Assembly: GCA_002457235.1 (NCBI GenBank)
Contig: NTJV01000004.1
Span: 1 to 34,326, forward strand
DNA length: 34,326 nt
Source of the DNA: Puniceicoccaceae bacterium MED-G32
Lineage (GTDB): Bacteria; Verrucomicrobiota; Verrucomicrobiia; Opitutales; Coraliomargaritaceae
Direction: 5' to 3'
Part shown: one piece after another, positions 20,676 to 24,590 of the stretch
How positions within the stretch are numbered: the stretch's first letter is position 1
Layout of the letters: each line of letters opens with the position of its first letter
Notes under the pieces: generated by a model
Database searches by the model: none
Told to the model about the DNA's origin: nothing
Seen by the model: the letters and a program-made list of their open reading frames with translations, nothing else
Translations under genes and position numbers: made by a program

Positions 20676-22031
20676 ATGCGAATCGATCGTTATATAGCAC
20701 AAAATAGGGTCATTGATATTGAGAGTCATGATTTCAAAGGTGCTTTAGAGGAGTTGCTAGATGTTTGTGAATTACCTAAAGCGACTCGCATAAAAAAATC
20801 AGATTTGATGGAAGAGTTGTTAGATCGAGAAACTCAAATGACAACTTATTTAGGGAATGGAGTTTGTTTACCGCATGCCCGTGTCAAAATGAAACGCCCT
20901 TATATGATAGCAGTAGGTCGTTGTCCGAAAGGTTTGGAATTTAAAGGACAAAGAGATTATCCTGAGATTCGTTATCTATTTTTATTATTAGCAGCAGAAA
21001 ATGCGCGGAGTTACCTGTATGGTTTGGCGGCACTGGCAAGAGTATTTCAAGATAATGCTCAAATGGCTCGATTAGCTAGTGCACAGTCTTTAGTTGAATT
21101 TAAGCGAGAGTTGAAGTCTGTCTTTGGAGGGCAGGGAAGAACAACGATTAAGGGACATAATCGTTTTAATTTCTTAATGCTTAAGGAAGCGGCAAAAATT
21201 GCGAAAGGTTCTAATTGTTCCTCAGTTGTAGTTTTTGGTGATACCTTTGGTGGCGGAATTGAGATTGGTAATTTTTTTAGTGGATTTAAGACCGTACTCA
21301 TTGCTCACGGAAGTTCTGAGGCGATTAAACTCAAAGATAAAATTGATGCAGTACTGCCTGTGCGTGCTTATAGCCAACAGCGTTTGTCTCAATTAAGAAG
21401 TGCGGTGTTAATTGGCTTGGCGCGAGGAGTTTTCAAAAGTACAGATCGCTTGTGTTGCGTAGGTGGTATTCCCCAAAGTAATCAATTCGATAGTGTGGTT
21501 GTAGTTGATATTGATCGTGAATTTAGATCCTTATTAATTGATCGTTCAGATGTATTGCCTTCGAATGTTTTACCCGAGGTTGTTGAGCGTGTGCTTGGTA
21601 TTGCTACAGAACTGGCAATGGAAGGCCGAGAAGGACATTCAGTCGGTTGCTTATTTACAATTGGAAGTGCCGATAAGATTAACCAATATACAAAGCCTTT
21701 AATCCTAAATCCGTTTCACGGATACGATGAAGAAGATCGGAATATATTGAATCCATTTATGGATGAAACGGTTAAGGAATTATCCACTATTGATGGGGCT
21801 TTTGTTATACGAGGAGATGGGGTTTTACTGTCTGCAGGCTCATTGATTCATGCTCCAGATTACAACCATCGTTTGCCTAGTGGTTATGGGAGTCGTCATG
21901 CCGCTGCAGCTGCAATAACTAGTGTAGTCGATTGCTTATGTGTAGTCGTTTCAAGTAGCACGGGTCAGGTTTCATTATTCCGAAAAGGAGAGATGCTTCC
22001 ATTGATTGAAAAAAGCTTTGTTCAACGCTGA
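20676..22031 (+). CDS. PTS EIIA-like / CdaZ-type diadenylate cyclase fusion protein
   Basis: A 451-residue cytoplasmic protein with three parts. Residues 1-150 resemble a PTS EIIA (fructose/nitrogen type) domain, with GNGVCLPHAR placing a phosphoacceptor-type His at 67. Residues 165-300 look like the pyruvate-kinase-C-like domain found in CdaZ. Residues 310-451 form a DAC domain, with LAMEGREGHSVG, NPF-GY, DGA (373-375) and the GSRHAAAAAIT segment. DAC domains make c-di-AMP from two ATP. The usual RHR motif reads R407-H408-A409, so activity is uncertain. The fusion suggests that sugar or nitrogen PTS signals control c-di-AMP levels, but this is inference. No other PTS gene is in the window. 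Confidence 0.85.
   Translation: MRIDRYIAQNRVIDIESHDFKGALEELLDVCELPKATRIKKSDLMEELLDRETQMTTYLGNGVCLPHARVKMKRPYMIAVGRCPKGLEFKGQRDYPEIRYLFLLLAAENARSYLYGLAALARVFQDNAQMARLASAQSLVEFKRELKSVFGGQGRTTIKGHNRFNFLMLKEAAKIAKGSNCSSVVVFGDTFGGGIEIGNFFSGFKTVLIAHGSSEAIKLKDKIDAVLPVRAYSQQRLSQLRSAVLIGLARGVFKSTDRLCCVGGIPQSNQFDSVVVVDIDREFRSLLIDRSDVLPSNVLPEVVERVLGIATELAMEGREGHSVGCLFTIGSADKINQYTKPLILNPFHGYDEEDRNILNPFMDETVKELSTIDGAFVIRGDGVLLSAGSLIHAPDYNHRLPSGYGSRHAAAAAITSVVDCLCVVVSSSTGQVSLFRKGEMLPLIEKSFVQR

Positions 22032-24515: not shown

Positions 24516-24590
<75 letters not shown>

Follow-up and report, generated by a model that had tools for sequence, protein, structure and literature searches.

The gene at positions 20,676–22,031 of the window, the 34,326-nucleotide stretch of DNA from Puniceicoccaceae bacterium MED-G32 analyzed here, raises two questions: whether the PTS EIIA domain at the N-terminus of its product controls the c-di-AMP synthase to which it is joined, and whether a diadenylate cyclase (DAC) domain with RHA at the position of the RHR motif of DisA and CdaA makes c-di-AMP at all.

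Domain Organization and Predicted Structure

The gene and its features, all on the forward strand, are as follows:

20676–22031, forward strand: EIIA-DacZ_P-DAC fusion gene, predicted c-di-AMP synthase (451 aa, ATG start)
20721–21116, forward strand: PTS EIIA domain, residues 16–147 (Pfam PF00359; EIIA-Ntr fold, Z 19.0)
20874–20876, forward strand: His67 codon, predicted phosphoacceptor (H in 84 of 89 rows; aligns with the PH of PtsN)
21159–21524, forward strand: DacZ_P domain, residues 162–283 (Pfam PF21755)
21615–21992, forward strand: DAC (diadenylate cyclase) domain, residues 314–439 (Pfam PF02457; CdaA/DisA fold)
21792–21800, forward strand: DGA motif, residues 373–375 (D and G in all 94 rows; Ala in 90)
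21894–21902, forward strand: RHA motif, residues 407–409 (RHR position of DisA/CdaA)

The original prediction had read an EIIA domain, a CdaZ-type middle domain, and a DAC domain into this protein, and Pfam recognized all three above their cut-offs: PTS_EIIA_2 (PF00359) at residues 16–147 (E = 9.1e-20, 71.5 bits, cut-off 27), DacZ_P (PF21755) at residues 162–283 (E = 1e-19, 70.9 bits, cut-off 27.4), and DAC (PF02457) at residues 314–439 (E = 1.1e-20, 73.9 bits, cut-off 27). LPHAR with His67, DGA at 373–375, and RHA at 407–409 are present in the translated open reading frame as it had described them. The structure predicted by AlphaFold2 from 48 homologues has a mean pLDDT of 82.9. When this model was compared using VIA-align, residues 1–153 matched EIIA-Ntr (1a6j, Z 19.0) and residues 296–445 matched CdaA (8c4n, Z 16.5), with Foldseek concurring in both cases, and residues 294–443 matched DisA (9y4s, Z 16.1). 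The expected resemblance of residues 1–150 to EIIA and of residues 310–451 to DAC is thus borne out. The link of the middle domain to the pyruvate-kinase-C (PK_C) domain, a kinship resting on sequence profiles, is weak: the family profile gives a weak pyruvate kinase match, and one relative (L108) gives a weak PK_C match. DacZ_P is described here as a PK_C-related domain and probable sensor.

Amino-acid change is strongly constrained in all three domains, with dN far below dS where dS could be estimated; as saturation affects the synonymous sites of most comparisons, dN/dS supports a statement of strong constraint only. This constraint, together with the full-length recurrence of the gene in dozens of genomes, indicates that the fusion is no chance product, and its existence is confirmed.

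Comparison with Known Systems

The protein combines the features of the DacZ superfamily, namely a DAC domain, a PK_C-related domain N-terminal to it, and the DGA and RH residues. Haloarchaeal DacZ (NF041371) likewise has a C-terminal DAC domain with DGA and RH and a PK_C-like N-terminal domain (PMC6741144), and Haladaptatus DacZ is 30% identical to the window protein over 208 residues. However, the haloarchaeal proteins are about 270 residues long and have no EIIA domain, and the third motif residue is His in two Haladaptatus sequences. The window protein scores 105.6 bits against the NF041371 equivalog model, below its cut-off of 430. The “CdaZ-type” label consequently holds at the superfamily level, where the protein falls in the DacZ_P branch, but does not extend to the haloarchaeal equivalog. 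Other DacZ_P-DAC proteins (PF21755 plus PF02457) share the same middle and catalytic domains, although some are without EIIA (L108, L120) or have another N-terminus (L107).

CdaA and DisA share the DAC fold (Z about 15–16.5), DGA, and the RH of RHR with the window protein, whereas the full RHR of the canonical enzymes is replaced by RHA at 407–409 and the regulatory domains differ. Pfam detected neither a CdaA-type membrane domain nor a DisA-type DNA-binding domain in the window protein, and its scores against the CdaA (TIGR00159, 35.6 bits) and DisA (NF010009, 24.8 bits) models lie below the respective cut-offs of 188.8 and 201.

By its domain match, fold, and active-site His, the N-terminal part is a PTS EIIA of the fructose/mannitol/Ntr class. 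It resembles EIIA-Ntr (PtsN) in fold (Z 19.0), in the active-site PH, and in belonging to a regulatory relay without the searched permease family, but it is covalently joined to a cyclase, and Tyr occupies the place of the second active-site His.

Distribution of the Fusion and Its Neighborhood

The original prediction had left open how widely the fusion is conserved across the phylum. DacZ_P was found in 59 of the 63 genomes sampled from the window's order versus 8 of the 325 other genomes of the phylum, and a protein search gave a match, mostly full-length, in 52 of 57 relatives. The named loci among these relatives belong to Puniceicoccaceae/Opitutales, Verrucomicrobiota. Exactly one DAC is present in 49 of the 50 DAC-bearing relatives. 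As judged from sequence, the fusion is an order-wide trait and usually the sole predicted c-di-AMP synthase of the cell. In a tree of DAC domains, the copies of the order grouped together with support of 97/98; deeper branching is unsupported, so the tree does not fix how often EIIA was gained.

Beyond the order, families f43 and f86 have the EIIA fusion as well (L106, L110), and relatives consisting of DacZ_P and DAC without EIIA are represented by L108 and L120. The latter (L120:3750–4640, genome G014) encodes a second DacZ_P-DAC copy of 296 aa with an RHL motif, and the same genome has the fusion. A gene for a predicted membrane protein follows L120 immediately downstream. An 840-aa DacZ_P-DAC frame with an RHN motif is found at L107:3006–5525 on the reverse strand (G164); its first ~540 residues match no Pfam family.

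The feo-que-DAC-trpA-manC-mla neighborhood is complete at the genus-level loci tested, and trpA also lies near some other copies of the family. Because the neighbors otherwise differ beyond the genus, the neighborhood is uninformative, and it was dropped as an operon-type clue to function. Anti-phage defense was likewise set aside, as no PADLOC family matched. No riboswitch was detected in the window, where Rfam yielded only a tRNA at 24516–24586.

His67 and the PTS Relay

His67 is H in 84 of the 89 rows having a letter at this position and lines up with the PH in the active site of PtsN. Together with Arg51, it is retained in nearly all members over long distances. Where PtsN has its second active-site His, the window protein has Tyr113, and Tyr is found here in 85 of 89 rows.

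The proteins that would deliver phosphate to this residue are widespread: HPr is present in 49 of 57 relatives, EI in 38 of the 40 tested, and HprK in 25 of 31. The window assembly (G000; 671 kb, 71% complete) encodes an HPr carrying both phosphosites, GVHARPA and GKSIMGLM. EI and HprK were not found in this assembly; both are present in the genus-mates G001 and G003 (97% complete), and the EI of G001 carries the GGATSH motif. The relay is retained in nearly all genomes with complete assemblies. As for its outputs, the PTS permease family PF02378 is present in 4 and absent from 53 of the 57 relatives, EIIA-Man was found in none of the 57, and none of the seven genomes of the window's genus has a PF00359 domain other than the fused EIIA; these counts cover PF00359, EIIA-Man, and PF02378. 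With EI, HPr, and HprK present and the searched permease family mostly absent, the relay looks regulatory, and the cyclase is probably its main output. Transporter-less regulatory PTS have been noted in related phyla, e.g., Planctomycetes and Chlamydiales (PMC2405797).

Two genomes depart from this pattern. In G042 (L121; 0.9 Mb, 93% complete), the fusion keeps His67, yet EI, HPr, and HprK were not found. In G016 (98% complete), HPr and DAC are both missing while EI and HprK are kept; a co-loss of HPr and DAC was not retained as a finding, since this one genome is its basis and an assembly gap is possible.

His67 itself is replaced in a few lineages, by Ser, Ser, and Cys in three genomes of family f19 (L112, L113, and L114 in G196, G222, and G350, respectively) and by Tyr in G039. 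In G350, the EIIA domain falls below Pfam recognition. All of these versions have intact DGA and RHA motifs, and HPr, EI, and HprK are still present in their genomes, indicating that phosphorylation is not indispensable. Three f19 siblings of the His67-less genomes (G054, G344, and G426) have no DacZ_P at all.

These replacements lend some weight to an alternative in which the synthase is active but EIIA serves as a structural, oligomerizing, or docking module, with His67 phosphorylated weakly or not at all and regulation exerted by DacZ_P alone. The EIIA-less relatives L108 and L120 fit such a role, as does the finding that EIIA shows the lowest conservation among the three domains in most comparisons, with DAC better conserved. 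Against it stand the long-range retention of His67 and Arg51 and the near-universal presence of the relay where assemblies are complete, and we consider this alternative unlikely. Under the preferred reading, in which His67 would be phosphorylated by the relay, the intact DAC domains of the His67-less lineages suggest that a lack of phosphorylation probably does not preclude activity. Our guess as to the direction of control is accordingly that the enzyme is active when unphosphorylated and is held back by phosphorylation.

Possible Connections to Ion Homeostasis

Other genera of the family, but not that of the window, have a second EIIA within proteins of ~740–760 aa. The one examined over its whole length (L146:686–2917, G036:C2) comprises 743 aa and is a Na+/H+ exchanger that also contains TrkA_N and, at its C-terminus, EIIA. 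The K+/H+ antiporter YcgO of E. coli is inhibited through binding of PtsN in its unphosphorylated form (PMC11808508). Together with the precedents for transporter-less PTS, the exchanger fusion and the PtsN–YcgO interaction suggest that EIIA outputs in these bacteria concern ion homeostasis. Two possible c-di-AMP targets are encoded in the window genome, namely a CitMHS-type transporter bearing TrkA_C domains and a TrkA protein, and K+ transporters are the putative site of action of the nucleotide.

Alternatively, information could flow mainly in the reverse direction or in trans, such that EIIA acts in trans on K+ transporters in the manner of PtsN and the DAC part controls it through nucleotide binding. 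TrkA-type proteins are indeed present, and because the fused EIIA is the sole PF00359 domain of the genus, it would have to perform any PtsN-like function in trans. However, the DAC domain is better conserved than EIIA, which argues that DAC output is the selected function and makes this reversal quite improbable.

The RHA Motif and Catalytic Competence

In an alignment of 94 rows, comprising homologues 28–100% identical with close relatives among them, D373, G374, R407, and H408 are the same in every row. At position 409, 86 rows have Ala and the others S, T, V, I, N, or L. Two Haladaptatus proteins scoring above the NCBIfam DacZ cut-off read GTRHHAAAAIT, that is, RHH in place of RHA. DacZ of H. 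volcanii is a proven, Mn2+-dependent c-di-AMP synthase (PMC6741144); the RHH motif was read in the two Haladaptatus sequences and not in the H. volcanii protein. Laboratory E. coli, by contrast, reportedly lacks any DAC (PMC6741144). Mutants in which RHR was changed to AAA are inactive in both M. tuberculosis DacA (PMC3328451) and M. bovis CdaM (PMC13022847), but three residues were altered together in each, so that these mutants do not show a need for the last Arg.

From this comparison, which the original prediction had called for at residues 373–375 and 405–410, RHA is best taken as the native, standard motif of the DacZ_P branch. The concern that the change might be disabling is not supported, and a dead enzyme resulting from RHA was rejected on the conservation of the motif and on the two haloarchaeal proteins that also lack the last Arg. 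A catalytically dead DAC domain sensing ATP or c-di-AMP, which RHA in the place of the expected RHR and the inactive AAA mutants might recommend, is highly improbable given the invariant RH and DG, the haloarchaeal RHH, the triple nature of those mutations, and the fact that this is usually the only DAC of the genome, so that a dead enzyme would have no c-di-AMP to detect. The fusion protein is most likely an active c-di-AMP synthase.

Proposed Mechanism and Significance

We propose that the protein would be a soluble, active synthase of the DacZ superfamily, normally the sole one in the cell, with its EIIA domain as the terminal acceptor of a non-transporting regulatory PTS relay. Phosphate would pass from PEP to EI, then to HPr, which HprK could gate, and finally to His67, and the phosphorylation state of His67 would be relayed via DacZ_P to the DAC dimer. 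In this way, PEP or energy status would tune c-di-AMP and hence K+ and osmotic control. That the synthase is active and tuned by the relay through His67 is, in our judgment, somewhat better than an even proposition; tuning by the relay is itself the more probable state of affairs, and the coupling of EIIA to DAC is presumed. Weighing against this model are the loss of His67 in f19 and G039 despite a retained relay, G042 with its His67 but no relay found, Tyr113, the low conservation of EIIA, and the lack of EI and HprK matches in the 71%-complete window assembly. The phospho-controlled c-di-AMP synthesis advanced by the original prediction thus gains backing from homology, structure, and genome context, with phosphorylation as an inferred step. 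More tentatively, and at slightly less than even likelihood, the PTS may have quit sugar import in most members of the order and become a PEP-driven switch of their sole c-di-AMP synthase.

No functional study of the EIIA-DacZ_P-DAC architecture was found in the literature searched. Galperin reportedly reviewed DAC domain architectures in J Bacteriol in 2023, and since Pfam has a name for the middle domain, this architecture may already have been catalogued.

How c-di-AMP synthases are regulated has been an open question for a long time. Covalent attachment of the PTS to a synthase would, if true, offer a directly testable answer, involving one histidine and one product, and would provide a concrete output for the permease-poor PTS of this bacterial group. 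The fusion to a phosphate-accepting EIIA points to an ion-control signal, c-di-AMP, whose level is set directly by energy status. Carbon and energy status would then be joined with ion homeostasis in one polypeptide, and such a tie would exist outside the usual Gram-positive models.
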